Shown here: in pieces, positions 9,062 through 46,375 of the stretch
Layout of the letters: every line of letters begins with the position of its first letter
Numbering within the stretch: position 1 is the first letter of the stretch
From: Entoloma clypeatum
Lineage: Eukaryota > Basidiomycota > Agaricomycetes > Agaricales > Entolomataceae
Length of the DNA stretch: 64,000 bases
Assembly: GCA_963565915.1 (NCBI GenBank)
Contig: OY751486.1
Span: forward strand, 1,674,001 to 1,738,000
Reading direction: 5' to 3'
Made by a program: the position numbers and the translations under genes
Notes under the pieces: model-generated
Databases searched by the model: none
What the model was told of the DNA's origin: nothing
What the model saw: the letters and a program-made list of their open reading frames with translations, nothing else

Positions 9062-9063
9062 TA

Positions 9064-10682: not shown

Positions 10683-10684
10683 TA

Positions 10685-20640: not shown

Positions 20641-20699
20641 CGAAAGGAAGGACTGGCGAAAAGGTTGAAAAGGACCGGAGAAAGGTGGCCGGCGACAAA

Positions 20700-20985: not shown

Positions 20986-21004
20986 TCATCTGTTACAAAC
21001 CAGG

Positions 21005-21203
21005 AGGTGTTTCACATTATCCTATTTTACATTGCAACCCCTAATGTACCTATTCCCCATCGCCCAACCGCCCACCCGCACCCTCCCCATCTTGTTCCTG
21101 CATTGCCCCACTATCTATATTGATGATCCTGTCGGCGATATTGTTGCTGACCATCTCATCAACCACTCACCGGGTGCCAGCCGCCCGGCGCCAGGAAGTG
21201 TCA
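21005..21203 (+). other. Possible ORF of KDZ-A split by gypsy G4 (first part)
   Basis: An open frame reads IDDPVGDIVADHLINHSPG and continues across the G4 target site TGTCA into 27366-27500 as VDPVYLCRLQTVCSILVADA, ending at a TAG. Not recognised. The continuity across the duplication supports real pre-insertion sequence, not necessarily a gene. Confidence 0.35.
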
Positions 21204-21606
21204 TGTTATGCTTAACAAACTGTTCCAAGGTTCAGGCAGAGTATGCAGGAAAGTGGAAAGGCGAAGAGCAATGTGCTTGCTAAATCTAAGGAATCTACTA
21301 TAGTACAGGAGGTTTATATAGGTACTGACTATAGGCGATAGCGGATGAGTCAGTACTACGGAAGGCAGTGCGCATGAGTAAGGCGACTGCGGAAGGCTAT
21401 GTACAATGAGTAAGCTGACTGCGGAAAGTGAGTCAGCGCGGGAGCGAAGTATACTAAAGGGGCTGACGAAGTAAAGATAGTGAGTCAGACTGGGAATCGA
21501 AGGTTGCGAAAGTAGACATTAGACATAGTAAGCTCGTAAGAGGGCGCCGAGCCGGGCCGATAAGTAAAAGTGATGATGTCGTCTGCATACCGTAGAGTCC
21601 GTAACA
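21204..21606 (-). repeat. G4 3' LTR
   Basis: 403 bp. It aligns end to end with 26963-27365 with about ten substitutions, mostly transitions (for example ACTGTTCC versus ACCGTTCC). Confidence 0.95.
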
Positions 21607-21640
21607 TGTTCCCCTCTTCAAGCTCTGTGTCCTCACAGAG

Positions 21641-22012
21641 TCATTGTCCCCATCCCTCGTTGTTGCCGGGATCGGACCAGTTCGGACTCTCCTTGAGACT
21701 CCAATCATATATCAACTCCTCGTTGATGGCAACGGCGAGTTCGAGGCCTTTGATAGCCAGCCGAATACGTCGATTTTCGATCACGAGGGTGCTGGTGTAA
21801 TTTCCGAGGATTTGTTTTTCCTCGGGACTCGGGGCGATGGGGAGGTTGGACAGCGAGTGAAGCCGGATATGCATCTGGCAATGAAGGAGGTCGGCAAGGG
21901 AAGTTTTGAGGGCATGGATTTGGTCTCTCATGGAGAGTGCTTCGTTCATGAGGGCGGCAATGGTGGGGTTGATGTCGGTGGTGGAGGTGGAGGTAACGGT
22001 GGTGTTGGACAT
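21641..22012 (-). CDS. Extra ORF downstream of pol in G4 (helical, unknown)
   Basis: A 123-residue ORF starting 104 nt after the pol stop and ending just before the 3' LTR, in the sense orientation of the element. The middle is rich in Leu, Ile, Ala and charged residues, with likely helices (IAALMNEALSMRDQIHALK; NRRIRLAIKGLELAVAINEE). It has no signal peptide or membrane segment, so it is not envelope-like. I do not recognise a family. G6 has a different, longer ORF in the same place. Confidence 0.5.
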   Translation of the reverse strand: MSNTTVTSTSTTDINPTIAALMNEALSMRDQIHALKTSLADLLHCQMHIRLHSLSNLPIAPSPEEKQILGNYTSTLVIENRRIRLAIKGLELAVAINEELIYDWSLKESPNWSDPGNNEGWGQ

Positions 22013-22116
22013 GGCGGTGAGGATGGTTGATTGGGCGGGGAAAAGACTAGAGCGGGGAACTCGGTGTGTGGTTGACTGATGAGGTCGATACTGTTATGGA
22101 TTTCGAACACTGTCTT

Positions 22117-23270
22117 TTATCGTGGGCGAGACGGGTTCTGCCGATGGAAATCATGGATCAAATCTTGAGCGTTCTGAACATTAGCTTGAGGTTCCCATGT
22201 GTTCTCTTCTGGGCCATATCCTTCCCACTGGACGAGGTACTGGATCTTTCCACGGAACTTTCGAGAGTCTAGAATCGTGGACACATGGTATTCTTCTCGT
22301 CCTTCGATGATGATCGGATCAGGGGCTGGTTTCTTCTTCTGGATGGCGTACTTTGGGGTTTCGTATGGTGACAACAGGGTCTCATTGAACACAGGGTGAA
22401 TCATTTTCCAAGTCTTCAGAAGATCAAGAAGGTACGCGCTAGCTCCTTTCTTCTCTAGGACCTTGAATGGTCCATGTCGGAGTGTGTCAAGTTTCTTCAA
22501 GGGACGGTTAGTCCTGATGTTAGTCCCTTCCAGCCACACCTTGTCTCCGATGCGGTAGTTCCGAGACGGACTTCGTCGTGTATCAACTGTCTTCTTCATC
22601 TGATCCTGTGCCTGTTTCAGCGCTGCATTGGCATCTTCTCGTGCTTGTTTGAGCTTTTCCAAGAAGCTGTTGGCAGCCAGGTTGGTGTCTTCCAACACAA
22701 GTTCTCCCTTCCAAGGATGCAAGCCATAGTTGAGGTAGAATGGTGTGTGCTTTGTCGCCTGATGTTCTTTATCATTGTACTGGAATTCAACAATTGTGAT
22801 CCACTCAGCCCAATCATCTTGTAGATGGTTGACAAAGTTTCGTAAGAACGCTTCTGTTTCCTGATGCGATCGTTTGGCCTGTCCATCAGTCTGTGGATGG
22901 TATGCGGTGGACAGATTCCTTTTGATCCCTAACATGCGGCAAAGTATCTCCATGAACTTTGCAGCAAACTGTGGTCCCCTGTCACTGATGATCTTTTTGG
23001 GGATCCCATGAAGCTTCCATATCTGATCCCGATAGATCTTGGCTAATCCTTCAGCCGATAATTCCACGGTTGTCAGAATGAGATGGAGCATCTTCGAATG
23101 TCTATCCGTGATGACCAGAATCACATTCTTTCCCTCGGACTCTGGTATCGGTCCCACGACGTCAATCCCTATGTCTTCCCATGGATGACTTGGTGCTGCA
23201 TGGGGGTGTAGCGGAGCATGTCGTTTCTGTTTGTTGATCTTGTTGTTCCGTTTCATACCAGGGTAAGCGC
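22117..23270 (-). pseudogene. G4 integrase with C-terminal chromodomain
   Basis: The frame holds the DDE core ([35 protein letters not shown]), the GPF/Y-like C-terminal part (RHGPFKVLEKKG) and a chromodomain (YHVSTILDSRKF; YLVQWEGYGPEENTWEP). The N-terminal HHCC finger and the linker from RNase H are missing. The RNase H end runs into the integrase at about 23265 in another frame, consistent with a deletion of several hundred bp. The first residues of the 23328 ORF are out-of-frame RNase H sequence. Confidence 0.85.
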
Positions 23271-25263
23271 GACAGGATGTCCGCTTTTGCATTTGTCTTG
23301 CCAGGCACATGCCGTAATTCGAAGTCATAGTCTTGTAACTTCATCTTCCAGCGCCTTTGTCGTTGATTTAGGTCCTGAGGACGGCGGAAATACTCCAGGT
23401 TCTTGTGATCAGTTAAAATCTCAAAGTGTTCCCTGGCTTCAAGTAGATAGTGTCTCCAATCTTTCAGTGCTTCCATGACTGCCAAGAGCTCTTTGTCATA
23501 TATCTCGTAATTTTGTTCGGCCGCGGACATGGTCCGTGACAAGAACACGATAGGATGCCATTTGTCGTCCTGTTTTTGAGAGAGTACAGCTCCAATTGCA
23601 TAGCCCGATGCATTGGTTTCGACCCTGAACTGTCCATCTGGTTTTGGTAATGCCAAGACTGGTGCCAATGTGATCGCCTGTATGAGTCCTTCAAATGCCC
23701 TTTGTTCTGTTGGTCCCCAAGTAAACGCAGTGCCGCCTGTGAGCGCGGTAAGTGGTTTCGCGATGTTTGAGTATCCTTCAATGAAGCGCCGATAGAAGTT
23801 GGCAAACCCAAGGAACTTCTGGACTTCCTTTTTTGATGTGGGTGCTCGCCAGTTTCGGATCGTGTCCACCTTTTCGGTTTCCATCTCGACACATCCTTCA
23901 CCAACGACATATCCCAATATGGGGCATTTCGTTACTTCCCAGAAACACTTCTTCTCCTTCAGGAACAAGTCATTGTCCGATAGGATCTGCAGAATTTCTT
24001 CGGTGTTTCGCGCAAGTTCTTCCTTGGTTTTACCAAGAACCACAATGTCATCCATGTAGATCACACAGATGTGTCGGCGGATCTGGTCCCGGAATAGACT
24101 AGCCATCATCCAAGAGAACATTCCCGGGGAGTTGCAAAGGCCGAAAAACATGACCAATGGTTCAAACAATCCTCGACTGGTGAGGAAGGCAGCCTTCCAT
24201 TCATCGCCTTCCTTGATCCGGACATTGTTGTAACCCCACATGATGTCCATCTTATTGAAGTAGACTGCATCTTTCAGCACGTCCAAGAGATCGGAGATGT
24301 GCAGGAGTGGGAACTTGTCTTTGACCGTAAATTTGTTGACCATGCAGTAATCTTGTACCAATCGTTTGGAACCATTCTTCTTGTTGATGAAGAAGCAAGG
24401 GGAAGCATAAGGGATTTGGACGGGTGGATCTTTCCAGTTGCTAGACCTTCGTCGATGAATGCGTCCAATTCCTCTTGTTCCTTTTGTGTCATGGGATATG
24501 TATTTCCCCCTAGTTCCTTTGGTGCGTCCGGTGTAAGTTCAATACCATGGTCCCATTCCCTTTCCTTTGGGATCTTATCAAAGTTCTCCTTCTCGAAGAG
24601 GTGAGTAAACCGATCAACATATGAGGGTCGTTTGGTTGTGGGAGGTGGTGTGGGAGTGACAGCTTCCAATATAGGGTCTCCAGGCTTCCATTTCTGATCC
24701 GACTTCTTGGGTGCATCTTTGTCACGCACCTCAACCATGCGAACCCGGTGTTTGCGACCATCGAGGTTAACCCTGAAATCCGAATGTTTGGTTCGGCATG
24801 TTGTTGGGCACCGGTTGAATGTTACAGCGCCGGTTGTCCAATTGATCGTAGGGTTGTGGTGTACCAACCAGTCATGTCCCAAGAGCATGTCTGTTCTCCC
24901 AATGTCCAGTACCATTGCTTCCATGGTTTCCTGATGTGTTCCCAAATCCAGTTTGACTTCGGCAAGTTGGTTTGCTTTCTGTTGTCTATTTGGTGATCCA
25001 TCCGCATTTAGAATTGCTATGGGCGGTATCCCTCATGTGGGGAGGTTCTGTTCACGTACTATTCTGGGATGGATGCATGTGCGTTCACATCCGCTATCAA
25101 CCTCAGGTCGAATGACCTTTGGTCCTCGTCGTGTTTTGAGCTGAGCTAACAGCCTGATCTCTCGTCGTTTTGGAGGTTTGTCTCCCTTCACAATCTTAGT
25201 CGACGCAGCGGCTCGCTTGGCAGGGATGACATAGGTTCTATTGTCTGCAGTCATACAAGGCAA
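23200..25263 (-). pseudogene. G4 protease, reverse transcriptase and RNase H
   Basis: The protease has VDSGCERTCI near 25095 and GHDWLVHHNP near 24865. A TGA interrupts it at 25033-25035. A frameshift near 24380 moves into the RT frame, which has KMDIMWGYNN and the active site YMDD (about 24050). RNase H reads ETNASGYAIG where the family has ETDASGYAIG. The Asn codon near 23612 replaces a catalytic Asp and fits CpG decay. DHKNLEYF and KADILSRLP mark the RNase H end. Confidence 0.85.
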
Positions 25264-25304
25264 GCAAGTCCGTTTAATAGATAAGGGTCACGACTTAGCG
25301 TCGT

Positions 25305-26932
25305 TTAATCGGACGCTTCGGGAAAATCCTTCTCGTCGGCTTCTAAGATTGTGGTTTCATCATTCTCGGCATCTTCCTCAGACACCTTCCTAACCCTTCC
25401 GGAGTTCTTCTTCAGCTTGCGACAGTTGCGTGCAATATGGCCTTCTTGGTCGCAGTTGAAACACTTGCGACCATCTTTCTTCTTTGGAGCGCTGCAGTCT
25501 TTAGCGAGGTGACCGAAGCGTTGACAGTTGTAGCAACGGGCCACTCCTGCTTTGTCGATCTCCATGGCCTTGCCCTGACCACCATAAGTGGTACCCGATC
25601 CGGTGCGCATGTCGCTACCACCCCGGATGACTAGTGCATGTCCCTCCATCTGTCATCCCTTGTTTCGGATCTCCTTTGCGTACTCGGAGTATGTCTTATC
25701 CTTGCTTGCCACTTGTTCAGAGATTCTTCGGTTGATGTTCTTTTCCAGGATGTATTTCCCAGTTTCTTCACCAAGGTTTGACAGCTTCAAGAGCTCTTCG
25801 AATTCGTCCAAGAATTCATCAACGGTACGTTTCTCCTGCCTCAGGACTTCGAGTCTCGCTTTGGCAGCGACTGACTTGTTGGCGACAGAAAATCGTGTTG
25901 CGATATCCTCTGAGAATCCTAGCCAGGTGATGTTCTTGTTGTCAACGGCAAGAGCGTCTAACTTGTTACTGGCCCAGTGCCTGCTGGACCCTTCCATCAT
26001 GCGGGATAGCACCGCAAGAATCTTCTGATCGTCTGTTAGGCTCTTTTGGAACCTGATGTATAGTTTGGTGGCTTTCCACCACTCGTCAAAGGTGTGTCTG
26101 TCCTTGAACATCCCAGGATCCTTGATGATCTTGGATGTATCCATCGTTTGTACTGCCGGAGCTTCTGCCATGTCTAGAGTCTGCGGAGAAGGAGAGGGGT
26201 CGGGTTGTTGGGATGAAGATGGGGTTCGGGATACAGGTAAGGGTTGAAAATGAGTCCCTGTTCTAGGCGTCTGTTCGATATCTGACTGTGCGGAGTTAAA
26301 AGCAAATTCATCAGGGGACTTGTCGGCGGAATTGGTGGCAAAACGTTCAGGGTATTTCCTTTGTAGATCTCTAAGGAATCTCTGTTCCTGCGCGTCTGTC
26401 GGTTGTGAGAAGGGGTCAAGTCTCTCGTTTTGTGCCCAACGACCGTACTCGGTCTGTTGTTCGGTGGTTGTGAAGTGGGCGTAGATCTGTTGCTTTGAGT
26501 ACGACGTGATGATGTGGCTCTGGGACGTCTTGATGTGAGCGTCCTAATCAATCTTCTGATAACGGTTGTCTGGACACCGATAAACTCTCTGATCTCTGTG
26601 ATCCGACCTGTCTGAGGTCCTTCTTGAACACAAAAGCTTTCAAGTTCGTTCTGTCGGGCGTTGTAACGCGCGATCTGGTGTTGTCGAGCAAGATGGATGC
26701 TCTCTGCTATCTCGCCGTGGGGGCGATGCTCGTCGTTGTCTAGTTCTTCGTCAAGCACCTGCTGTAGGATGCGACAGATCTCCAATTCAATGTACTGCTG
26801 GATGAGTGTAAAATCGATGCTGTCTCGAGGACTTAGCTCCTCCTGTTGGGCTTCTGGTGAGGCGAATGGGTTACTGGTGAAGTCTTCAAAGAAGCGCGAC
26901 GTCTTGACTCGTCTGGTAGTTGCTCTCTTCAC
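25305..26932 (-). pseudogene. G4 gag with two CCHC zinc knuckles
   Basis: From Met 26932 a basic N-terminal region is read to about 26470, where a frameshift switches to the frame used downstream. The capsid-like part (MFKDRHTFDEWWKATKLY; EEFEELLKLSNLGEETG) is followed by a TGA at 25653-25655, then CYNCQRFGHLAKDC and CFNCDQEGHIARNC and an acidic tail. The knuckles bind RNA in the particle. The gag stop and protease start lie in different frames. Confidence 0.85.
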
Positions 26933-26949
26933 TCTGGGCGAACCTAACG

Positions 26950-26960
26950 AGATTTAGCAA
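26950..26960 (-). promoter_or_regulatory. G4 primer-binding site, self-priming type
   Basis: Two nt after the 5' LTR the sense strand reads TTGCTAAATCT. It is exactly complementary (11 nt) to AGATTTAGCAA in the LTR (27036-27046 on the minus strand), which begins about 33 nt after the TATA box at 27072-27079. That is the geometry of Tf1-type self-priming from the mRNA 5' end. No tRNA match starting with TGG is present. Confidence 0.7.
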
Positions 26961-26962
26961 CT

Positions 26963-27365
26963 TGTTATGCTTAACAAACCGTTCCAAGGTTCGGGCAGAG
27001 TATGCAGGAAAGTGGAAAGGCGAAGAGCAATGTGATTGCTAAATCTAAGGAATCTACTATAGTACAGGAGGTTTATATAGGTACTGACTATAGGCGGTAG
27101 TGGATGAGTCAGTACTGCGGAAGGCAGTGCGCATGAGTAAGGCGACTGCGGAAGGCTATGTACAATAAGTAAGCTGACTGCGGAAAGCGAGTCAGCACGG
27201 GAGCGAAGTATACTAAAGGGGCTGACAAAGTAAAGGTAGTGAGTCAGACTGGGAATTGAAGGTTGCGGAAGTAGATGTTAGACATAGTAAGCTCGTAAGA
27301 GGGCGCCGAGCCAGGCCGATAAGTAAAAGTGATGACATCGTCCGCATACCGTAGAGTCCGTAACA
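26963..27365 (-). repeat. G4 5' LTR
   Basis: 403 bp, TG...CA bounded by TGTTA/TAACA. On the sense strand TATATAAA (27072-27079) precedes the predicted mRNA start near 27046. Confidence 0.95.
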
Positions 27366-28137: not shown

Positions 28138-29219
28138 ATGTCCGCTACTCCCCGCAAGACCGAAGACATTGTCGCCGACTTCGCCCGTTTCGACGCCATG
28201 ATTCGCAGGGGATGGCTGATGGGACCATCATTGAAGGGTTAAAGGGGATGAAGGGAAAGTTGGTGAGTAACCCCCGGAGCCATTGTATTGACCCGATTCT
28301 AACGTATTTCACGAATAGTTGAAATTGTTCAAGGAAGTGGCAGGGCAACCGGCGGCACCGTTTGCCAGGTTCACCTGGATAAATCAGTTTGTCATGTCCT
28401 GGGCCCACAAGCGCAAAGAGGACGGGTTTCTGGAAGGTCAACGCCTTGCCCTGGCAACGTTCGACAGCCTGCGGGTACAAGAGGCAACAGCCCCTGTAAC
28501 TGCACCATTGGCTGGGCCAAGCAATGTGCCGACAGGAGCCGCGGGTGGACGTCCGACACCACGTCGCCTTACGGCGAAGGGCAAAGTACCAGCGAAGGGA
28601 AAAGAGACGGCGAAGGGAAAGGACACGGTGAAGGGAAAGGAAACGGCGAAGGAACAGGAGGGGGAGGGGAATGGCAGGCGATCAAGGGAGACAGGGGAAG
28701 CCCAACGTGGGGGGTCAGAGGAGATGGAGGTGGACGAGTTGTTGAAGGAGAAGATGGCGACGGCAAAGGAGAAGACAGAAACGGCGACGACGGCAAAGCA
28801 ACCGGCGAAGAATATAGTGGGTGCAGCAAAGGCAGGAACGGGAAAGGTGGCGAAGGACGCACCTGCAAAGATGACACTGAGGTCGAAGCCAACCATGGCT
28901 TCAAGCAGTGATGAGGACAAGCAACCGGCACCAGCCCGAGGCGAGACGATGCAAGGCCGCAGGAATTATGCTCGGCGAGCCCCTGTCCACACCGGCAAAT
29001 ACAACAACATCCCGTGTGATAGGTGCAAATTCAAGGTGCAGCCATGTGAGAAGGAGAAGTTTGCTGCAGCGTGTTATGCCTGCTACACGCTGAAGGGGAA
29101 ATGCCTGTGGCGAGGCACCTCAGAGGAAGAAGAAGACCAAGATGGAGGGCCGCAGTGCGTCACGAAAGGCAAAACCGGCGAAGGAGGCAGCACGGCAGAA
29201 GGCGACGAAGGCGACTGAA
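28138..29219 (+). pseudogene. KDZ-A accessory gene 1: Zn2Cys6-like cluster protein
   Basis: Exon 1 starts MSATPRKTEDIVADF at 28138. Intron 28263-28318 (GTGAGT...ATAG, with TTCTAACG as branch site) leads into KLFKEVAGQPAAPF. A one-base loss near 28210 breaks exon 1 (stop TAA near 28239); the other frame carries GTIIEGLKGMKGKL. A Lys/Ala/Gly-rich middle with repeated AKGKETAKGK is followed by C-x2-C-x6-C-x8-C-x2-C-x6-C (29012-29105), the spacing of a fungal Zn2Cys6 binuclear cluster, and an acidic tail. The cluster suggests DNA binding. Unlike typical regulators it sits near the C-terminus, and no activator domain is recognised. A frame switch near 29130 may mean it was once joined to the next gene. 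Confidence 0.6.
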
Positions 29220-29247
29220 TATGTGGAGGTAGAGACAGAGGTGGACG

Positions 29248-30593
29248 GTGATGATGAGGACGATGAAGATAAGAACGGCGATGTGGCGACTGGCCCAGGA
29301 GCAACCACCTCCTGGCGACGACCCATCGGCGACGGCGAAGCCAGGGGTGACACTTCGCTGGTGGCGCGTTCAACACTGCCCCCCACCCTCACAGATGCGT
29401 GTGAGTAATTATACTGAATCATTATCATCTCACGCAGTCTGGCCTGGCAGTGGAGCTATACCTGGTGGACTGGTTCCGCCAGCAGGGAACCATCTCGCAG
29501 CGGGCATACCATACACAGAGTTGCGCCCTGTTCAAGCTCGAAGGGCAGATTAACAAGCTCACAAACCGCTTCAACCGAATCCTGGAGGGGGCAAATGCAC
29601 AGCTGGCGATGCAGGAGGAGAATGTGTACTCCCGCCTGTTGTACATGGAGGACACACTCGAGGGGTTGAACATCAGGTTGACGGACATCGAGAACTACCT
29701 GGGTTTCGACCGCCGTCCCGCCCACGACGACCGCGAGTACTGGCGACCCTACCTTCCCCCACCACCAGAAGTCAACATGGAGCGCCTCTGGCCTGCGGAC
29801 CCCAAGGGGATGGACCCTGAGCACTACAAGATGGGGGGGTGGCAGCAAGACAAGGGTGCATGGCAAGATTTGCCCCTGCGATGGCTATCGACAATGAGTG
29901 ACCCGCCGTCATCGACCCCTCACGCCTCGCGCCGACCACCCTTCGCCGGATCCTTCACTGGGTCTCTCGCCAAGCCCTTTGCCAGGTCCTTTGCCGAGCC
30001 CTTTTCCGAAGATTCTGGGGCCACGCCTGGCCCATCTCAGCGAGTGCCATTCGCCAGACAACCCCTACGCTGCTTCCTTCGCCATTGGGCATTCGCCGGT
30101 CAGTCGCTGGGATGACTCTCCCTCGCCATCGCCCCCAGCTGTCACTGCCACCACCACTACCACCACCACTGCCGCTGCCACCATCACCGCCGCCTTCCAC
30201 CCCGTCACACACCCCGTCGTCGCCCCTCCTGCAGTCTCCCACCCTGTCGTCGCCCCCCCTGCAGTCAACCTTATCACGCCGACACCAACGACATCCCAGG
30301 AGACAGCGCAAGGCACGGTGCAACTCATCCCCCCCCCACCTGCGAGTCCTATGGCTGTCGTCGCAGAGGAGGAATCTGTGATGGAAGAGGATGTGCCCGA
30401 CACCACCGACACTCGTCCAGTGACCCTCGCCGCCTTGCCTGCTGATGCGCCTCGGCGAAGTCCTCAGCTAAGCAACCACTCACGTTTGCCATCTGCATCA
30501 GGCAGTACAGCATCATCTGAGGGGAAACGTGGACGAAAGCGCAAGGGTGGGGATGACAGCAGCACGACTGGGGGAAAGCAGTCTCGCGCGTGA
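29248..30593 (+). pseudogene. KDZ-A accessory gene 2: coiled-coil protein with GRKRK tail
   Basis: A 37-nt intron (29401-29437, GTGAGT...CGCAG) leads into AVELYLVDWFRQQ and a heptad-like coiled coil (KLEGQINKLTNRFNRILEGAN; LEGLNIRLTDIENYL). After a frameshift near 30040 it becomes Pro/Ser/Thr-rich and ends with GKRGRKRKGGDD, a likely nuclear signal. A paralogue with the same order (short first exon, intron, coiled coil, Pro/Ser region, RRGRKRK tail) lies at 62027-63501. The start is uncertain: an acidic frame from 29142 also leads to the intron. Role unknown; position suggests a helper of the transposase. Confidence 0.55.
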
Positions 30594-30977
30594 ACACGGC
30601 TGGCGAATTTTTTATTTTTTATTCACATATCCATTCAACTCACTTTCATTTGTTTTACAATTTTATTATTGCTTGTCATGTAAGTATTGTATGAAAGGCA
30701 ATACTGCTTTTGTCGTTTGGAATGGCGAAGGCCATTTGAGTGATCTGAATCAGTTATTAGCATGGTGACAATTCAAGATCAGAAACATGAATATCCTACC
30801 ATTTGGTGTAATCAATGTTGGATCAATCACTGAGTCGTTTGCTCGATTCAACATCAAAGCCCGTACGGCAGAGGCTGGGACACTATACTGTGGGTCACCA
30901 TCCAGTGGGCCATTGATCGGCACCGTGACCATCATGCCCTGTTGAATGAGTTCATTCATTTGCATTTGACCTACAGT
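30594..30977. other. Downstream region of accessory gene 2
   Basis: An AT-rich stretch (30600-30700) followed by a minus-strand frame (30965-30750) reading VTVPINGPLDGDPQYSVPAS, which I do not recognise. Family L LTR begins at 30978. Confidence 0.3.
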
Positions 30978-31532
30978 TGTTACACTTTTTCACCCTCTTC
31001 TCTATGCACCTGACACGACCCTTCGACCCTTGATCCCCATCACACCCCGTTTCACTTACTCCAATGACCTTGGGACATGTGTCCCCTCTACCAGCACTAT
31101 GACTCACAATGACTCAGACTATTCTCCCTTTAGATACATTTTCACTCGCTATCTCTGACTCACGGCCTCGCGGCCTTATCTCTGACTCCTATGCCACAGC
31201 CCCCTTGAAACATCTATCTAACCAATGGCTTATTTAGCTCCTGCGCAGCACCTACTTATTTATAGCTACAGGATAATGTATATAAGACCTGTAACCTTAG
31301 AGTAGAGGTCCTTAGCTTGACCTAGGCAAACAACACTTACTTGTCTATTCTCTCGAACACTCTCCAACTAAGTGCCTTGCGTGGACTTAGCTCTGCCAGA
31401 TCCAAACCGAGTTGTCCTTCTGAGGAACTCGTTGATTGACCAAGTCGACCTATTGAGGGACTTGTTGTGGAACCAGTTCGAACCCACGCGATCCGATTCT
31501 TGGACTTTCTGTTGTAGGCTATCGCCGTAACA
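30978..31532 (+). repeat. Family L LTR (5' LTR of a truncated gypsy)
   Basis: 555 bp, TGTTACACTTTTTCACC to ATCGCCGTAACA. TATATAAG is at 31279-31286 and AGCTTGACCT at 31314-31323. Diverged from the G6 LTRs. Confidence 0.9.
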
Positions 31533-31788
31533 AAGGTCAAGCTGATCAACGCCGCCAACCCACCGCGGGTTTAGACGCAAAGATTCCTCCCCGACGATCT
31601 ACCTTTGGAGTCCCATCCAACTCAGAAGACGAACAGGAGTTTGTTGACGCACCCATCACACCATGACCACCGCCGACACCGTACAGAAGAGTAACCTCCT
31701 CTTTCATACCAGTCAACCCCACATCACCCTCTTCTTACCTCTCTCCGAGACGAAACCCACCGCCGCCAGCTGTTGCTGTTGCTGCACC
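31533..31788 (+). mobile_element. Family L leader and gag start, cut by a LINE
   Basis: Aligns with the G6 leader (57564 downwards). The self-complementary site AGGTCAAGCT is at 31534-31543. The gag frame here has TGA at 31664-31666 where G6 has CGA, and CGA at 31751-31753 where G6 has TGA. Sequence stops at GCTGCACC, immediately followed by a T24 tract. Confidence 0.85.
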
Positions 31789-33200
31789 TTTTTTTTTTTT
31801 TTTTTTTTTTTTGGTCAACAATTTATATAGTGGTATACTAGGGGTACAGTCCGCTTGACATAGATTAAACTACATCGATCCGAGGATCTACATACGCATG
31901 AAGAACAGGCGGCGCAAAGCTCCGTCGAGCTGATAAGTCCTCGCGCCAGGACAGGGGGGTCTGTTATAAACAAACATGTTAGCATACACACCCGAATATT
32001 CGGCTGCGCGATGCAAGAGCACTCCAACCTTGTGAGGTTGGCCGTTGACGGCGCTGGGGGGTGTCTGCGCCCTACCCACCAAAGAAGCGCCTGAGCGGTT
32101 CTTACCCTTCGATCATGTTCACTTGCCAGAGGGGGCTGCACCCCTTTGTACCCAGCACCACGCGATTACCGCCAACGGTTGTGTTGGGTGTTGGACGATC
32201 CCTAAAGGCAAAGGCCCCTGGGTTATCCATAATGAATTTCCCGAAGATGTCCCAAATGGGAGTGTTCCTCGAGAAGGTGGGCATGTCTGGGGGCCTGGTG
32301 GGGTGGTGCAGACATTTGTAGAATACATGGGCGAAGTCCTCGATGGACCCCAATCCACAGTCGCATTGTTCAATCTTGTCACCAATATTGAACCTATGTC
32401 TATAGTGGCCAATTGGGGCGTGACTGGTGAGGCCGTGGACCATTTGAGCCGTGAGGGATTGGGAGTGACCCACATCCTTAAGCCATGTGCTGCCCTTGAG
32501 GTGGGACAGTTTCATTCTTTTGGCCCGAGCGTGGTCTTGGCATCTGACGCACGACCTCGGGAATTGGTAGTGACGGCCAACATACTTGGGGGACTGATAC
32601 AGGTTGTTCCAGTCGACTAGCATGTCATCCGTGAATTGTTTCGTGTTGAAATTGAGGGATCTGGAGGCGAAGTCGTACACTGCATGATGGGGTTCGAAGC
32701 CATGGTCCGAGCAATCAGGGACATGGTGAAAGAAGACCTTGGATTTCAGACCTGGTTCCTCAAACCAAGGGACCAGGTTACTGATGATAGCAAGCGCAGT
32801 TGCCTGCGATGAGTGGAGGTCCGGGTCTGTGGCGCGCCGAATGGCGTTAACAGAGTCGGTGAAGATATGGATTTCTTCCAGTTGGGAGAGACCCCCTAGC
32901 AGAGTGACCAGGTTGGAGAACCCCCCCGTGTCCTATTGCTAAGGTTTCAGTGTCGTCAGAGACTGCGAGGCCACCAGCTGCCCAGTCTTTGTTGATGGAG
33001 TACCCCATGTGCCAGGTTTCCCAAGCTGCAACAGCTTGATGGCCCGACACAAGGGAGGGAATGGCCACGTCAGTGCCTACTGACAGTCGGCTCGAGGCTT
33101 CCTTTGTGGCACAAAGTCGGACATGGGTGGTGGGATGTGGAATTATTCAAGAAACATCCTCGATGGAACCCATTGGACATATATTGCTTTAGTGATTTTT
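31789..33200 (-). mobile_element. Non-LTR retrotransposon (LINE) 3' end with poly(A)
   Basis: A 24-nt T run (31789-31812) is the poly(A) tail of an element on the minus strand. Upstream on that strand come a 3' UTR, then a frame reading VHGLTSHAPIGHYRHRF and CDCGLGSIEDFAHVFYKC, the terminal Cys/His segment of LINE ORF2. Before it is an RNase H-like stretch (HIFTDSVNAIRRATDPDLHSS) and a damaged start near 33070-32850. RT and endonuclease are absent, so it is 5'-truncated. It lies inside the gypsy leader. The clade is not determined. Confidence 0.75.
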
Positions 33201-33231
33201 GTGAACACATGTTTAATACTTTGATCATTGA

Positions 33232-33832
33232 TAGTGTTTTGAGGTCCAGTTTACTTTTGTTGGTTTCAGACTGAGACCGGACGGAACCGAACCGGTGAAA
33301 GACCAGACCGCCGGTCTTGGTCTTTAAGGTTTCGGATCACAACCGGTTTCCGGTTCGTCTTTTTTCAGGATTTTCAGAGACCGCTAAAAAACCGGTTTGA
33401 ACAGTCTGTGACCAAAGGTCACCCACAGTTGGTATACTCACCAACTGCAGTTAAACTCCGAGTTTTTCAATGATTCTTTGACCAATTTCTGACATCAAAA
33501 GAATTTTAAAAAAAACCGCAGTTGGTATACTGATGAACTGCGGTTCAATCTTGAATTTTTCGATGATTCTTTGATATCAAAAACCCAAATAAAGTCAAAC
33601 AATCATCAAAAACTCAAAAAACACACCGCGGTTGGTGAGTATACCAACTGCGGGTGAAGACTGGTCTGAACCGGTCTTGGTTTCATTCTATCTGAGAAAC
33701 AGAACCGGTATGACCGGTTTCACATGGTCCGGTTCAGTTTTTCAAGATCATGTGAACCGAAAAATTGGTCTCGGTCTCAGTCTCTAAATTTTGAGGGTCA
33801 AAAACCGGACCGAATCGGACCTTTAAACACTA
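33232..33832 (+). mobile_element. hAT-like MITE copy C, complete with 8-bp duplication
   Basis: 601 bp. Ends TAGTGTTTTGAGGTCC and GGACCTTTAAACACTA are inverted repeats. Perfect 8-bp duplications ATCATTGA flank it (33224-33231 and 33833-33840). The TAGTG tip and 8-bp target size fit the hAT superfamily. The interior has three imperfect palindromes sharing GGTATACT, and no coding capacity. Confidence 0.9.
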
Positions 33833-36289
33833 ATCATTGATGATGTACAAAAATGATAGAAGACAAGCTTTTGCGGTGACAAGTGAACACACGGAGATCA
33901 TTGTGGACATGTGTTCACCATGCGCCGTCGCATTTTTGCCCGTTTGAACCAATCCTCTCTCGTGAACCAATCCTCCCCAACCTTTCAATGTTGAGCCAAC
34001 GATCAAAGCGACAGAAGAGGATTCATGTATATGATGAGGATGAGAATTATCAGGTGGTTACAGTAAAGAAGGTGACTGTATTGACTCGACAAGGACTAAT
34101 TACCTGAGATGTTGATGTCCCACTATACCCGCCCACCAATTCCAATCTACAATCAGATGACGAGGCAGGTCCAACCACTGAGCCTGTCAGTGTTGCGATC
34201 CCTCCAGATGGCCCTTTTGGTGATGCTGGATGGGAAGGATTGGCGAGTGATGACATGAATCCAAATAGAAACAAGATACCAGCTAATAAATGATCTCAAG
34301 TATAATTACTAACAGGCATGGTAAAGCAACACTATTGGATGCAAGAATTTGTCCATCGTGCTGATTCCTTGTTGGCCGCATTACTCTCCCGAGAAGCTTT
34401 GCCGGCTGGTGGATACTGCCAGACATGCACTGGTGAGAAAAGAGCTGTGTGGAGGTGCATAGATTGTACCATAACACCTTTACTCTGTCATGGGTGCATG
34501 CATCATGCTCATCAACATGACCCGTTGCACTGCATTGAGTGTTGGACTGGTAGTTTTTTCGCCGTGCTGCCTTGTGGGAGGTCGGTACATACATTCTTGT
34601 TCCACATCATCTGGACACAGACCTCTGCCCATCATTGGAATGGCAAGTCACATTCTTGGAGGAACTTCAGATCCAGCAAGATGAGAAGGAACAGCATTGA
34701 CTCACGGCAACAACCTTCGCTGGTGACACTATATTCGCCGGTGACACTACATTCGCCGGTGACACTAACTTCGCCGATGATGATACATTCGCCGGTGACA
34801 CTACCTTCGCCGGTCCTACTGCCGATGGGGTGGACAATGATGATACTGACTACCCGAGTACCGAACTTGGCGAGGATGACGATGAGGACGGCAACTTGAT
34901 GCCATGCCATGGATATCTCGCCGAGAATCCCCTGAAGGCGGCGCCCTTCGCCGACAACTCAACGGCCGGCGATTCAGCTGCTGCCGAGGCACACACTAGT
35001 TCCATCCCCACCATACCCCAGCATGACTCATTGCTCAACCCTATGTGCATGTTGTTCACCCTAATGGGATCCATCATCTTGCGCTGGTTACCTGTCAGTG
35101 CCAAGGCCAGGAGAGTGTTCACGGCGACCTGATGCACTGTCGCCTGGTGCCAACAACCTTCATCCGGTACAGAACTCTGTTCTCTGTCGCTGTTCTGGAT
35201 GATTTCTGCCTTTCAAACCTCGAGTGCAAGGCCACGGCATACCAATACTTTCAAAAGCTTCGTCAACTCACATTTCCCATGGCACCTCTGAAGGCACCCA
35301 ACCTCTATCAAGAACTGCTTTGGCTGTCGCGCATCTGGCGCTGGTTGAAGAAGAAGAAGTGGGCTGGTCATGGCCACAGAATGGCGACCAGCAAACAGAC
35401 GGCACCCCCCGAATTTGGCAACTTCTGTCCAGCATGTCCCCAACCAGAAATCAATCTCCCAGAACACTGGAAAGAGGATCCACGACAGTAGGTGCATCAT
35501 CCCGATATCGTGTTCCTTGGTGAATCAAATGCACAGGGTGGGTGTACAATCGGTCTTTTGTCGCCGACAGCAACTTCAAGGCCGACCATGTTCGGCAAAA
35601 AACCTCCGGCAAGGTGTGGCTGGATGAGAGTGCTGGTATGATGTCAAAGCGTGAAGACTATCTCGGATTCCTGAAAACCGCCATAGAGCGCCTCACAGTA
35701 TGAAAGTTTCTGCATTGTTATACAGCCCAGAGATGCTGAAAAATTGATCTTTAGAAGGCACCATGTGAGAACCAGTTTCGTGCCATTGAGCTTGCTATGC
35801 TTGGCTCCAAGGCATGCGACATCACTGGCACTGTTGCCGTTGCCTGTGCACAGCATGGGTGTTTTGTCCCCAACGCGATTGCCAATCTGTTCAAGGGTGA
35901 GGGCCAAAGAAATGCTGACTGGGTTCTTCTTATGGGTATCAAGTATGGCAATGTGGATGTGGAACAGATCGTCATGATCATCTACGACATCATCTGTCAA
36001 TACTTTGTCTACCTTTATGACCACATTGGTCACCTCCTCCCCCCTGGCCTGGTGCTAGACCGGGCTATCGGCCTCTTTCATGTACATGGCCACAAGGAAG
36101 AATGTTTTTTCCGGTATGCCACGTCCTTCATTCCTGGCGCCGCCGTCACCGCCGGTGAAATCCTTGAGACTCTGTGGTCAAATTTGAACGTCATTACAAC
36201 AACAGTACGGACGGCTACACTGGCAAATAGGGCCGAAACCATTGATGACCATGCAACAGACTCAAATCACAAGAAGATGTTGAACATGG

Positions 36290-36571
36290 GTAAGTATTCC
36301 ACAATCATCCCTTTCTTGTTTCCCTGACGATTTCTTCGCTGACATCCTTTCGCCGACATTCTTTCGCTGATCATCCCTTTTGCTGGTCCTTCCTTTTGCC
36401 GATCCTTCCTTTTGCCAGTCCTTCTTTTCACCGGTGACATCCTTTCACCGACATTGTTTCACCGATCCTCCCTTTCGCCGATCCTTCCTTTCGCCGGTTA
36501 CCATCCTTTTGCTGGTACATGTTCGCTGTTTCGCCGGTCTCAGTACATGTCTTGTGCCGGCGACACATCCA
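36290..36571 (+). repeat. 282-nt intron of the KDZ transposase filled with TTCGCCGG repeats
   Basis: GTAAGT at 36290 and CCAG at 36568-36571; splicing joins LNM to ARSMSHAAMDY in frame. A dozen CCTTTCGCCGAC/CCTTCCTTTTGCCGG units fill it. The same array, inverted, lies near the left end of KDZ-A. Confidence 0.7.
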
Positions 36572-37535
36572 GGCGAGATCAATGTCTCATGCCGCGATGG
36601 ACTACTTTGTTAAGATGACGACAGCAATCACCCATGATCATGTGAACAACTGGGAGACAGAAATTAAAGCTGCTGAAACACGTCGCCTCACCAATGTCAC
36701 GGCAATGGATATTCTATGCACTCGTACAACCGATCCCAAGGAGCCTGTCGACATAATGCCAAGCGAGGTGCACACCCCGGTGGAAGAATGGATAGGAATG
36801 GCCCTCGATATCAAGGAGAAACAGTGCATGTTTTATGTGTCACTCACTTGTAATCCTTCTGATTGCTGGGCAGGATTGAGTTAGAGGACCGTCTCCGGCA
36901 TTGGAAAAAGAACCCTCGGCCTGAAGATGCAAAACAGATTGAACACCTTCAAGATAATCTCACATCCCAGCTGACTGTGCTCGATACATTGCAACAGCAG
37001 GTTGGGGTGCTGGGAATAGTGGCACCAGATACATCAACATCAGATGATCTGACAGCCTTTGACGATCTTGATGATGATGAGCCTGAAGGTGAGAGCAAAG
37101 ACGACGGCGACGTCCCTGGCTGCTATACTGTCACCGGCAACCTCCCACATGAACACCGGCCACTTGTCTTGCCTTCCACTGCGTCTGGTCGCAATCAAGC
37201 TCACTGTACTGTAGAGGTGGCCGAGCGAACGAGACAGGCCACACGGCATCTCAATGCACTTCGCACCATCATCACCGACAAATCCTTTCACTACTCCCAT
37301 GTCATCCGAGTAGCACCCCGGAAAAGTGTCAAAACTCGAGCTCGAGCCGCGATCATCAAGCTCAATCAGCAGATTTCTTTCCATTCTCAAGTATATACAC
37401 GATGCAGGGCGGCCCTCGGCCGGCTGCAAGCTTCGCCGGACGTCATGGCGAGATTTCAGGTTTTAAGCCGAGACGACCTGAAGTGCAGCACAGCTGTTCT
37501 GGATCCCAACATCCAGGGTTCAACAACTCTACGCC

Positions 37536-38147
37536 TAGTGTTTAAAGGTCCAATTCGGTCCGGTTTTTGACCCTCAAAATTTAGAGACTGAGACCGAGAC
37601 CAATTTTTCGGTTCACATGATCTTGAAAAACTGAACCGGACCATGTGAAACCGGTCATACCGGTTCTGTTTCTCAGATAGAATGAAACCAAGACCGGTTC
37701 AGACCAGTCTTCACCCGTGGTTGGTATACTCACCAACCGCGGTGTGTTTTTTGAGTTTTTGATGATTGTTTGACTTTATTTGGGTTTTTGATATCAAAGA
37801 ATCATTGAAGAATTCAAGATTGAACCGCAGTTCATCAGTATACCAACTGCGGTTTTTTTTTAAATTCTTTTGATGTCAGAAATTGGTCAAAGAATCACTG
37901 AAAAACTCAGAGTTTAACTGCAGTTGGTGAGTATACCAACTGTGGGTGACCTTTGGTCACAGACTGGTTTAAACCGGTTCAAACCGGTTTTTTAGCGGCC
38001 TCTGAAAATCCTGAAAAAAGACGAACCGGAAACCGGTTGTGATCCGAAACCTTAAAGACCGAGACCGGCGGTCTGGTCTTTCACCGGTTCGGTTCCGTCC
38101 GGTCTCAGTCTGAAACCAACAAAAGTAAACTGGACCTCGAAACACTA
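37536..38147 (-). mobile_element. hAT-like MITE copy D, inserted in a KDZ exon
   Basis: 612 bp, reverse of copy C. Ends are TAGTGTTTAAAGGTCC and GGACCTCGAAACACTA. Target duplications TCTACGCC (37528-37535) and TCTACACC (38148-38155) differ at one base. Joining across one duplication restores the conserved LRLSWIW of KDZ transposases. Confidence 0.9.
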
Positions 38148-38650
38148 TCTACACCTGTCCTGGATATGGCAGATGCAACTGGGTATCAATCCTACGTCGC
38201 CGGGTATTGTCGCCGTGGATCTTCTGATCGCCTTTTAGTCCAACATGTTCATTGGTTACATGCACGAGCACGAAGCCACCGCTGGGAGGAGGAAGTCATC
38301 CTCGTCCAATATGAGATGGGTTGGACGACCCGATATTTTATCCATCAACGGGACATTTGGGACGGCCGGCGACAAGTCGCCGCTTCGCCGGGACTCATGG
38401 CACATGCAGCGAGAAAGGCGGCGATGTGGCAGATCCTTGCGACAGATGCTGAAGATGAATTTGTGGGTACTACAAGGTCATATGTGCGGATAATTGAGTA
38501 GTGTTTTCACATTTACATATAACATCGGATTAAAAAAGGAAAAAAAAAACATGCATGTAACGTGTAACGATGTGACACATGGCATAAGCACATTGTTATC
38601 TGTCACATTTACCGCCATCTTCTTCTCATCCACAGTCTATTGCAACTACA

Positions 38651-40812
38651 ATGCCCTCTTCCTCCACCTCAACTTCGTTTATGACTGCTCCTCCTCGTCC
38701 GGATCCAAATACAGTAGTTGCATACTGTGAGTCACGCTTCTGTGCCACTTTGCTTGGTATCCGGCGGGCGCCGGCGAATCAGCATGGGTGGATGAAGGAT
38801 ATACTTGCCTCGGAATTGGTAAGCTGATGTACCGATTAAATAATCTGTATACTCACATATCATAGGCCGTGTCGATGCACTTTGTCGGCCTGGCGGCAAG
38901 TGCTGGAGTGCCAATAGACATTCCAATCATCACTCGCACACTGTCGTTCACCAATCTGGGTGGATATGGAAATGATGCTCATCCCCATTTTCCTTGGTCA
39001 GCCGTGCTTGATGGGAGCTCCCACCCAACGCAAGAATTTGGCATTGTGCCGCACTACCACCTCGACTGGTGGAACCACCCAGAGTGCCCCCAGCAGATTT
39101 TGGATGATGACACACTCACCCAGTGTCTCGAAGTCCACCACGGCGTGCTTGGTCACCCGCCGGGCAGCGAGACTGTCGCCGGTCCATTCGCCGGTCACTC
39201 TCTTGCCGACTATCCATCAATTCCCCCTCCCCATATCTCTCTGAACTCTGAGGCAGCGGCAGGGTACCGTGCCGTGGCCCTTGACGCCTCTCACCAACTC
39301 CAAGCGGTGGCAAACAGGCTTCATGCTCAGGAAACAGCGTCGGCGAATGCATTGCACTTGGCCATCCATCGTGCTAGTGGTTTCAACATGCTCTATGAGC
39401 ACGCCATGACTCTTGAATCCCTGGAACCCGCAAGGGGACACATTGCAGGACCACCATATCAGCCATCGGCAACCATTGGCAATCGCGCCGGTTCGCCAGC
39501 GGCCACTCCCCAACCCTCATCCTCACGGCCGATGTGCAAATCAACCACCGCTCAAACACAATGGAAAGGTAGGCCAAAGAGCAAGAAAGTCACCCTCCAG
39601 GATCTGGCCACCATGATCCAGGAGACTGCAGCGGCCGAACACGACCGATACCAGCAGCACCCCTCCCTGAAGTGGACCTGGGGCGTTGATCTCGAAGTTG
39701 ACGACATCAGGAAGCTGGTGAGAGCAGCAGAAAACCAGTACCAGCTGCCGCATTCTGGATATAACGAGTCCCTAGCCGACGGCAGTTTTGCAGGTAACGA
39801 CTCTGATGGCCCAGGAGAAGCCCCCTTCTCGGACATGATTGGTCGCCATTCCGCTGCCTCGCCATCTCTCATCACTGATCTCGGCACCCTCAATATTCCC
39901 CACCATTCCAGAGAGTACCCTCTTCACCGAGCCCACACGGCCACGCCGGCAGACAACCTGCCACATGGGGCAGGTGACAACTCCGCTGCTGCTTTTCTTC
40001 CTGCCCCTTCCCTCATCACTCTCGATGCCGAGTGTGACTCACCGATTTTCACTCCAATCCCCAGGTCACCCCCAACTCAAACTCCGGCCACCTCCACATC
40101 GCCTGTCGCCGATCACCAGGAGGTCGTCGACATTATCATGGGCGATATTCCTCTCCACCTTGTCATGCAGACACTGGAGGATATGAGTGACACCGACTTG
40201 CCATCCCAACATTCGCCGGCCGACCCTTCGCCGTCCAAACCTTCGCCATCCAAACCTTCGCCGTCTTCGCTGTCTTCGCTGTTATCGCTGTCTTCACCGT
40301 GCCACCCTTCGCCGAAGCCTGTTGCACCAATAAGGCGTTCACTGTCCATTGATTCCCCAGTCACTCCTTCCACCGCAATCTATCATCAGACTCTGGATGT
40401 TGTCATGAATGTCCTAGAGGAGGAGGTGAGTGACATAGAGGATGACCAGAGCGGGCCCCCACCGTCAACACTATTTGACAATGCACTGGCGGCTCTTGAG
40501 GATTCCGATGAAGCCAACGACGAGGCTGATGGCAGCAACGAAACTGACGGCACCCATAACGGCGACAGTGACGGGACAATCACAGCAACGGCAAACCTGA
40601 TGGCGAAACTGACAGCGAAACTGACAGCGACAGCGACAGCAATGGATCTGTCACCAATGCACCTACTGCCGCCAACATCGCCAGGGCACTTGAAGGTGTC
40701 GACTCCAATGTCTCTGATAGTGAGCCAACTGGACCCCCCCTCTCATTCGTTTGCTGGGGCTCTTTGCCCATGCCCCTGGGACTCAATTCCAATGCCGCCC
40801 TTGGACCACTGA
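38651..40812 (+). CDS. KDZ-A accessory gene 3: LKWTWG-motif protein
   Basis: Exon 1 (38651-38818, MPSSSTSTSFM) and exon 2 (38866-40812) are joined across a 47-nt intron (GTAAGC...ATAG). The predicted 705 residues have no stop. The N-terminal part reads VVAYCESRFCATLLG and SMHFVGLAASAGVPIDIPII. The centre has LKWTWGVDLEVDDI, RAAENQ and LPHSGYNESLADG. A long Ser/Pro/Asp-rich tail contains repeated SPSKP and acidic runs. A paralogue lies at 46376-48627 behind another KDZ transposase end, so the pairing is not accidental. No known domain recognised. It is the only KDZ-A gene I read without a frameshift. Confidence 0.75.
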
Positions 40813-40959
40813 AGATTTAGCTGATGTGCGTGTCCCTGGCAGTTCGAGTGATACTGGGTCATCAGAGAGCGAGGGTGCAGAGTGATATGCCTATAGTGGG
40901 GTACCATTGTTATTACATACTATACAGATGTCTACCCTTCTTCTCTACAATAAAATGAG

Positions 40960-41265
40960 CCTTGGTTGTCGCTGGCCATATTGAACCACATTGAATTGTT
41001 GTCACCGGCGGCATTGAGTTTGTCGCGGGCCACATTGATGTTGTCGCTGGCTGCATTGAGTTTGTCGCCGGCTGCATTGTCGTTGTTGCTGGCCATATTA
41101 CATTGAATTGTTTGTCGCCGGCTGCGTTGGGTTTGTCGCCGGCCACATTGTCATTGTCGCCGGCTGCATTGAGTTTGTCGCCAGCTGCATTGAGTTTGTC
41201 CCCGGCTGCATCGATGTTGTCCCCAGCCACATTGACTTGTCGCCAGCCACATTTCATTCTGTCAC
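40960..41265. repeat. KDZ-A right subterminal minisatellite
   Basis: About a dozen units of TGCATTGAGTTTGTCGCCGGC, the inverse of the left array. The minus-strand ORF 40913-41257 is a translation of this array. Confidence 0.85.
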
Positions 41266-41381
41266 CGCCCGCCGTGGCGAATTCGCGGGTGCTCTAGCAA
41301 ATTTGCTGCTTCCGTAATTTACCATACAGTGTATGTGTTCGCTAGACCATATATTACAATACAGTGTACGTTGACTACCTG
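41265..41381 (-). repeat. KDZ-A right terminal inverted repeat
   Basis: Inverse of 20312-20440. The 64-bp outer core differs by four C/T changes, and a 23-bp insertion lies between core and GAATTCGCC box. Terminus GTTGACTACCTG at 41370-41381. Confidence 0.85.
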
Positions 41382-41612
41382 AGAAGGGGGCAGCTCAGTT
41401 TGGTGATTGGTTGAGGAGAGTGAGGAAGGAAGCAGAAGAGGAGATGAAGCAAGCCTTACAGGTATCACACAAGTCATTCAATAGAAGCATTTGTCCTACA
41501 ATCTATTTCAAACCGGGGGATCTGGTATACATTGAGGGTACAAACATAAAGACTACTCGCCCCTCGAACAAACTCGCCCAACGCTGTTATGGCCCTTTTG
41601 AAGTCCCATTCA
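41382..41612 (+). pseudogene. Ty3/gypsy integrase C-terminal part (G3), right of KDZ-A
   Basis: Reads GAAQFGDWLRRVRKEAEEEM, then FKPGDLVYIEGTNIKTTRPS and RCYGPFEV, the segment that follows the DDE core in gypsy integrases. It continues the frame of 19855-20311 exactly once the KDZ-A element and one AGAAGGG are removed. It is cut at about 41612, and the chromodomain is missing. Confidence 0.85.
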
Positions 41613-45944: not shown

Positions 45945-46375
45945 ACTTCCAGACCTTTACAATCCCCTCAGTCTGATTACCTATATAATGGACTACTATT
46001 ATTTATTTCTCTCTTTCCTCTTTCCTACATACATACAACACATACACAACACACTCCATGGATCAGCCATTGGTCTCTCTCCACATGCCTTCAGTCATGT
46101 CATCACACGCGCTTGCGCATCTATCCCATACTATGTTACAGTAGTAGTTGTATCTAAATTGTACTCTAGTACAGACCAGACTGCGGTTGAGCCCCGGAAT
46201 ATAAATCAGGTGTTTAAAAAAATTTTTAAAAAAAACACTGTAGTCAATTACTGGAACCCCCAGTGGGTATCCAGCCACGGTGCACCAGCAACTGAACATG
46301 TCCTCAAATGATAAAACAAAGGAATCTAGTCACATACAAAGGCCAGATTAACAACACATATATGTACATGGCAAA
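45945..46375. other. AT-rich spacer, no gene seen
   Basis: Between the Pro/Ser-rich ORF and the end of the KDZ-C accessory gene. Contains an A/T homopolymer stretch near 46210-46240. No recognised repeat or terminus of KDZ-C. Confidence 0.3.

Follow-up and report, generated by a model that had tools for sequence, protein, structure and literature searches.

The described elements that come closest to the one reported here are the Kyakuja transposons of Agaricomycetes, which, in the sections of PMC12730594 covered here, combine a KDZ transposase with 7-bp target duplications, CA..TG ends, and an extra gene beside the transposase, two Laccaria families having no terminal inverted repeats (TIRs). 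The same sections give 8-bp duplications for Zisupton and a Dileera family, both likewise with a KDZ transposase and the former also with TIRs; they describe TET/JBP genes beside KDZ transposases and read those genes, in the KDZ elements of other fungi, as an escape from methylation. Nuwa/Harbinger elements are described there as two-protein DNA transposons, in which a transposase is accompanied by a Myb/SANT DNA-binding protein (PMC12730594). The element analyzed here is a KDZ DNA transposon, of a lineage that we call KDZ-A, in the genome of Entoloma clypeatum (60 Mb in 20 contigs). It lies in a stretch of 64,000 nucleotides that we call the window (C2:1674001-1738000, forward strand), and all comparisons were made within this one genome. 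The complete unit holds four genes, the transposase gene (T) and three others (A, D, and C), and this four-gene unit is almost certainly a real feature of the genome. We consider it fairly probable that KDZ-A is a recently mobile, Kyakuja-like KDZ family in which A, C, and D are accessory genes.

Gene T carries the domain that assigns it to the KDZ superfamily (PF18758; 123.3 bits against a cut-off of 26.6, at 35548-36267 of the window). As in the Kyakuja elements of the covered sections, the duplications are of 7 bp, the ends are CA..TG (5' CAGGTAG.., 3' ..GTATGTG), and the transposase has extra genes beside it, but KDZ-A has TIRs of 110 bp where two Laccaria families have none, and the extra genes recognized in it are A, C, and D where the one described for Kyakuja is TET/JBP. 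Because the long TIRs depart from one described feature, we speak of a Kyakuja-like element and stop short of classing it with Kyakuja itself. With Zisupton and Dileera, as described there, it shares the KDZ transposase, and with Zisupton the TIRs as well, but its duplications are of 7 bp and not 8. A search for TET/JBP (PF20515) gave no match in the genome, nor in any control, and the genes recognized in the copy on contig C14 (C14a) are A, D, T, and C; the last-named accessory genes, A, C, and D, find no mention in the covered sections of PMC12730594. KDZ-A resembles Nuwa/Harbinger in having, besides its transposase, a second protein that is a candidate for binding DNA (that of gene A); the transposase superfamilies are unrelated as far as tested (by the KDZ match), and the partner in KDZ-A is Zn2Cys6-like and comes with two further genes.

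Borders and genes of the KDZ-A element

The window carries one KDZ-A element, which runs from 20312 to 41381 (21,070 bp) and is flanked by the 7-bp duplication AGAAGGG (20305-20311 and 41382-41388). Its right border emerged from the comparison of copies, many of which are alike downstream of gene C up to the same point and then diverge; their common right terminus is ..ACAATACAGTGTAGGTTGAGTATGTG, the inverted counterpart of which was found in the window at 20312. The left end reads CAGGTAGTCAACC, and the right end, reversed, reads CACATACTCAACC. By these ends and the target duplication, the element is longer than the extent given in the original prediction (28138-40812), and ends near 28138 and 40812 are ruled out. 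The left TIR (20312-20401, forward strand) is about 20 bp shorter than that of C14a and is followed by a left subterminal region with CGGCGA-type repeats (20402-21203, forward strand); on the other side, a right subterminal repeat array with a 21-bp period (40957-41290, forward strand) leads into the right TIR (41272-41381, reverse strand). C14a, the cleaner reference, measures 13,647 bp and has a perfect 7-bp duplication, 110-bp TIRs that are alike at 106 of the first 110 aligned positions, and all four genes. The window element exceeds it in length because of nested insertions.

Both ends were read in eight copies. Six of them have a perfect 7-bp target duplication (C14a, TCTCCTT; C10, ATCTACA; C5, TTCAGAT; C11, CTGCAAG; C9 678110-702682, TTCCATG; and the window copy, AGAAGGG), one matches at 6/7 positions (C2 1972706, one mismatch), and one has no duplication (C14b). 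Three further copies showed no right-hand end within the stretch examined, and the remaining copies were examined at one end only. The window copy is peculiar in that its outermost bases are swapped between the ends (20312-20324 and 41369-41381), the left TIR beginning with CACATAC and the right one, reversed, with CAGGTAG, unlike nearly all other ends; another left end starting with CACATAC is found at C9 408012. The swapped copy still has a perfect target duplication, and its interior is in the normal orientation. An inverted interior was considered and ruled out, the exchange being limited to the outermost bases of the ends.

Gene A (28138-30593, forward strand) encodes a Zn2Cys6-like cluster (about 28958-29155) and a coiled coil (about 29414-29872) that ends in a basic GRKRK tail; it is frameshifted in the window copy. 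Its cysteine spacing, CX2CX6CX8CX2CX6C, fits by eye the pattern of Zn2Cys6 clusters (CX2CX6CX5-12CX2CX6-8C), with no Pfam family match at E 0.1. The original prediction had placed Zn2Cys6-like, coiled-coil, and LKWTWG coding sequences on the strand of the KDZ transposase, where all three are indeed present, but it counted them as three separate accessory genes, two of which turn out to be exons of gene A. Of 20 loci, 11 showed the cluster together with an intron donor (GTGAGT). The full 394 bp between cluster and donor are present in eight of these 11 (five open, three with one stop), two are frameshifted (including the window copy, behind the cysteine cluster), and one is shorter. The 394 bp leave one base over, which matches the coiled-coil frame in phase at the CAG acceptor. 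Because the open frame thus joins the coiled-coil frame in phase, the Zn2Cys6 part and the coiled coil are one gene, and the junction rules out a division into two.

A gene that the original prediction had missed, D, lies on the opposite strand between gene A and the transposase, with exons that have matching stretches in many other copies. Its two ends alone survive in the window: the last exon (30750-30989, reverse strand) and the first exon (33070-33336, reverse strand), which runs into the first of two ~600-bp repeats. Gene T (33988-38501, forward strand) encodes a CxC2-KDZ transposase in several exons and is interrupted at 37537; besides the KDZ domain, it has a CxC2 cluster at 35036-35272, corresponding to the PF18803 match of 61.4 bits in gene T of C14a. 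Gene C (38651-40812, forward strand), which encodes the LKWTWG protein, has a short first exon and a much longer second one (38866-40812), with GT..AG borders, and is open in the window copy. Stretches that its product has in common with that of a second lineage, KDZ-B, include SLKWTWG and then a GYD.SL.DG stretch. The C protein is predicted to be mainly helical, and no solved structure matches it at E 0.1. The structure prediction that had been suggested for the LKWTWG region was run on part of C and gave a model of low confidence (mean pLDDT 40.1; four alignment rows, window sequences only).

Recurrence, constraint, and lineage-specific motifs

Across the genome, exon-level searches, the counts of which are lower bounds, returned at least 118 KDZ and at least 52 CxC2 matches, along with at least 64 for gene D. 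Gene C gave at least 65 and at least 68 matches with queries from two lineages (125 of 143 candidates being scored for the 68), and gene A gave at least 29 and at least 10 with two coiled-coil queries and at least 30 with the cluster. After merging, there were 115 islands (36 with genes of more than one kind), holding 95 T, 54 C, 40 A, and 34 D loci. The order A> D< T> C> (arrowheads giving the sense) was seen 18 times, 15 in KDZ-A and three in KDZ-B; 12 islands are exactly so, and five more have extra pieces, one of these showing the order twice. At 23 of its 34 loci, gene D has T no more than 5 kb away, and in all 23 it stands upstream of T on the opposite strand; the same distance holds for gene C at 24 of 54, on the same strand in all 24 and downstream in 22, and for gene A at 16 of 40, on the same strand in 14 and downstream in two. 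Random placement (1,000 runs, on the 12 contigs with matches) gave means of 0.63 (D), 0.94 (C), and 0.71 (A) within 5 kb of T, with maxima of 5, 6, and 4.

Gene C loci have a partner within 12 kb in 44 of 54 cases, namely T, A, or D at 38 and only a KDZ-A end at six more, and 10 have neither; homologs scattered away from KDZ genes or confined to host single-copy loci, which would have spoken against the original prediction, are not what the genome holds. From the side of the element ends, of which 40 out of 162 candidates were scored, 33 lie no more than 12 kb from A, D, or C, and seven have none of the three at that distance. Because copies of one element are not independent, the proximity counts show a unit and not repeated invention, and we regard the occurrence of the unit in a second lineage as the stronger evidence.

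The KDZ-B loci with this gene order are at C2 1774591-1788319, at C9 3441990-3450507, and, as the mirror copy of the latter, at C9 3456200-3471297. In the stretch examined on C9 (3460001 to 3474500), D on the reverse strand, CxC2-KDZ on the forward strand, and C on the forward strand follow one another in order; gene A was located upstream at C9 3456200, beyond a nested long terminal repeat (LTR) retrotransposon. The KDZ-B right end, ..GGTACAATGTAGGTTGACTATGTG at C9 3473273, resembles that of KDZ-A, and neither the left end nor a target duplication was found for this copy. Pairwise, 71% of 128 residues of the transposase core are alike between KDZ-A and KDZ-B; when eight other KDZ loci were compared with the two, five matched one or both, at 26-31%. 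As an observation apart, the two mirror-image cassettes at C9:3441990-3471297 are 100% identical over a 317-residue gene C query and therefore reflect a recent inverted duplication.

A piece of KDZ-B also lies in the window (46234-49307, reverse strand), where the C-terminal end of a transposase (48842-49307) stands beside exon 2 of gene C (46376-48461), which has stops; the segment 46234-49212 is 89% identical to the C9 copy. The LKWTWG paralog expected behind another KDZ transposase end, in the same order, is thus borne out. A coiled-coil paralog had also been claimed at 62027. The protein encoded there (62027-63401, forward strand) does belong to a real family of 10 matches, itself included, and is a relative of the A protein in another lineage, but it resembles the coiled coil of KDZ-A weakly (29%, E 3e-4, by way of a relative at C2:462418 only), and no transposase was found beside it within the window.

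Between KDZ-A and KDZ-B, protein identity is 76% for T (over 179 residues), 30% for C over 342 aligned columns (33-36% in full-length search matches), and 42% and 34% in two exons of D. The comparison by codon position, which covered C, D, and T, gave identities at positions 1/2/3 of 0.48/0.58/0.29 for C, 0.83/0.86/0.41 for T, and 0.52/0.72/0.39 and 0.57/0.66/0.36 for the two D exons. Since the first and second positions are kept and the third much less so, the pattern is as expected from selection on the protein, and the fixed order in KDZ-B together with this conservation of C and D points to constrained genes and not passengers. Accordingly, the idea that the recurrent pairing is more than passenger DNA holds for a mobile unit with its own ends and duplications, the order of which is kept in KDZ-B along with codon-position constraint. 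The word "helper," used in the original prediction, goes beyond this.

Divergence within KDZ-A has a different character. Among 21 copies of gene C (L009-L029; 1,730 bp), 493 of 670 substitutions (74%) are CpG transitions (C>T or G>A), and 9.1% of CpG bases have changed, against about 0.6% or less elsewhere; per copy, 3.5-15.8% of CpG positions have changed, and outside CpG 0.1-1.5% of positions depart from the majority base. Because the substitutions are mostly CpG transitions, the copies have probably been methylated; the bias strongly suggests that young copies decay in this way. To judge from its copies, the KDZ-A family looks young. A first set of dN/dS ratios (C, 0.46; A, 0.36 and 0.38; against 0.65-1.23 in most other frames) was discarded because most substitutions are CpG transitions and the signal is weak without CpG.

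Each of the two lineages is also filled with a short motif of its own. C14a contains CGGCGA 122 times (either strand) and TCGCCGG 49 times (3.59 per kb), and the window has 34 TCGCCGG sites in the 11,434 bp of the element's own parts and one in the 42,923 bp outside. KDZ-B (7,654 bp) has no TCGCCGG site and 26 sites of TGCCGGT (3.40 per kb); elsewhere, TGCCGGT amounts to 0.66 per kb in C14a and 0.44 per kb in the window outside the element, where the KDZ-B piece lies. At eight loci from other KDZ lineages (28,731 bp), TCGCCGG was seen once and TGCCGGT never. The commonest 8-mer reaches a count of 28 in KDZ-A and of 14 in KDZ-B, and 50 order-2 simulations never went above 8 and 7. With approximate feature borders, CGGCGA in KDZ-A is densest toward either end (15.9 and 17.2 per kb, in opposing orientations) and in a stretch between transposase exons (32.6 per kb), with little or none in three short intergenic stretches and 0 to 13.4 per kb in coding exons. 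Both motifs contain GCCGG and hence a CGG triplet.

It is possible, at somewhat less than even chances, that the motif is not a binding site at all and is instead a functionless product of mutation, such as slippage or minisatellite spread. Several sites do stand in tandem arrays, with periods of 18 and 21 bp, in a region that differs between copies. Such an origin sits less easily with sites scattered through all four genes in both orientations, where they encode differing peptides (FAG in A, T, and C; PAN and FAG in D), or with two lineages filled with different motifs at similar density.

Damage to the window copy and neighboring repeats

Relative to C14a, by which damage is defined here, the window copy contains a nested 6.2-kb LTR retrotransposon foreign to the element (21204-27365, reverse strand); 2.1 kb of other repeats, comprising an LTR piece and other sequence, that replace most of gene D (30978-33077); an inserted ~600-bp repeat that resembles a miniature inverted-repeat transposable element (33233-33832); and a second ~600-bp repeat inside gene T, in the orientation opposite to the first (37537-38147). 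The window copy is probably not autonomous. The two ~600-bp repeats, which form inverted arms (33230-33832 and 37536-38149), were considered as the ends of the KDZ element and ruled out, being separate insertions that are absent from the C14 copy.

The ~600-bp repeat has internal palindromes, and further copies or pieces of it occur in the window at 8003-8418 and 11033-11283. Elsewhere in the window, two Tc1/mariner-like elements (9057-10687 and 15239-16869) are 99% identical in opposite orientation, each with an open 340-residue DDE_3 transposase frame. An LTR retrotransposon has LTR stretches at 50924-51223 and 57565-57864, the compared 300 bp of which are identical, and it is therefore a very recent insertion.

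Possible roles of genes A, C, and D

A mechanism can be outlined from the gene contents, each step of it conditional. T would cut and paste the element. The protein of gene A, with its Zn2Cys6-like cluster followed by a coiled coil, would dimerize and bind the CGG-bearing motif; Zn2Cys6 proteins bind CGG triplets as dimers, and we propose A as the reader because both motifs hold such a triplet. At the motif, A might mark the element for T or keep the element expressed despite CpG methylation. C, encoded just behind T, could be a partner of T or of A, and D, encoded divergently, a partner in the same process as A, C, and T; the two may help to build the transposition complex or to keep the element expressed. 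We think it quite likely that A, C, and D serve the element. Binding of the motif by A is a tentative proposal that, from the sequences, we would put somewhat below even chances, and it seems rather unlikely, though worth stating, that each lineage writes a private 7- to 8-bp motif over itself, coding sequence included, which its own A reads with C and D as partners.

A possibly comparable arrangement is known from the VANDAL elements of Arabidopsis, in which the anti-silencing protein VANC binds the family-specific motif of its own element and removes DNA methylation. In VANDAL as in the KDZ elements here, short motifs are repeated within the element and differ between families. The element protein of VANDAL is thought to recognize its own motifs, whereas here lineage-specific motifs and CpG decay are what is seen, and VANDAL has a transposase of a different superfamily.

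Several observations weigh against an accessory role for A, C, and D or against parts of the mechanism. No Pfam match above the cut-off was found for the A, C, or D product in the Pfam scan, and because T is the only one with such a match, motif binding by A depends on cysteine spacing judged by eye. No detectable A, C, or D lies within 12 kb of 61 of the 95 KDZ/CxC2 loci, so the gene set belongs to part of the KDZ elements and not to all. The arrangement also varies: in two islands, A stands behind T in the opposite sense; in a third lineage, C is upstream of T (C6 1649377-1665980, C> D< T> A<, with A further off and reversed; a second locus, C1 3963681-3967497, reads C> T>); and C2 5204829 shows a mixed arrangement. 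Three copies with a perfect 7-bp duplication have no detectable KDZ or CxC2, one keeping A, D, and C (C11 475154), one A and C (C10 558313), and one C alone (C5 354854); these may owe their movement to T from another source, or T may have been lost after they inserted.

Within KDZ-A, moreover, excluding CpG sites leaves a weak sign of selection for A, C, and D. The omega-like ratio is 0.70 for the conserved part of gene C (124 of 2,000 simulations as extreme) and 1.53, with no selection signal, for its tail. The corresponding ratios are 0.68 and 0.46 for the A cluster exon (556 and 66 of 2,000 simulations), 0.72 and 0.87 for the A coiled coil and tail (295 and 583 of 2,000), and 0.73 and 0.99 for D (515 and 1,263 of 2,000), with out-of-frame controls at 1.15 (C) and 0.74 (A coiled coil). 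The weakness of the signal is likely due to most differences having arisen after insertion.

The genes might also serve the element solely by evading silencing, as anti-methylation factors, and not by moving it, which we regard as somewhat unlikely but deserving of attention. The predominance of CpG transitions in gene C, with copies that have probably been methylated, would suit such a role, as would the TET/JBP genes on KDZ elements of other fungi, read as a means of methylation escape in the covered sections of PMC12730594. Against it, the Pfam scan found no enzyme domain in A, C, or D, and in the left noncoding part the CpGs of the motif showed no significant protection from decay (41/266 versus 82/359, p = 0.16 by site), a result that also weighs against our main reading. 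A pooled lower count at both noncoding ends, which had looked like protection, came from overlapping rows and was not significant with one row per locus. That A, D, and C are passengers of no use to the element, picked up by a single successful KDZ family, is very unlikely: the many loci that do without them and the merely weak synonymous bias of non-CpG substitutions within KDZ-A would fit, but the four genes keep the same order and orientation in KDZ-B at a C protein identity of 30-36%, with third codon positions of gene C near random and its first and second positions conserved.

An accessory function of A, C, and D remains our preferred reading. A fixed four-gene unit of this kind, with three conserved proteins of unnamed function, would mean that a transposase is not all that some KDZ elements require or benefit from. 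Since the motifs are lineage-specific, binding of each A protein to the motif of its own lineage can be tested directly. If each lineage does carry a private motif read by its own A, protein and motif would change together, giving these fungal elements a means of recognizing themselves, either to transpose or to evade CpG methylation. Should A, C, and D be common in mushroom genomes, as we suspect, a role would be at hand for many unnamed proteins.

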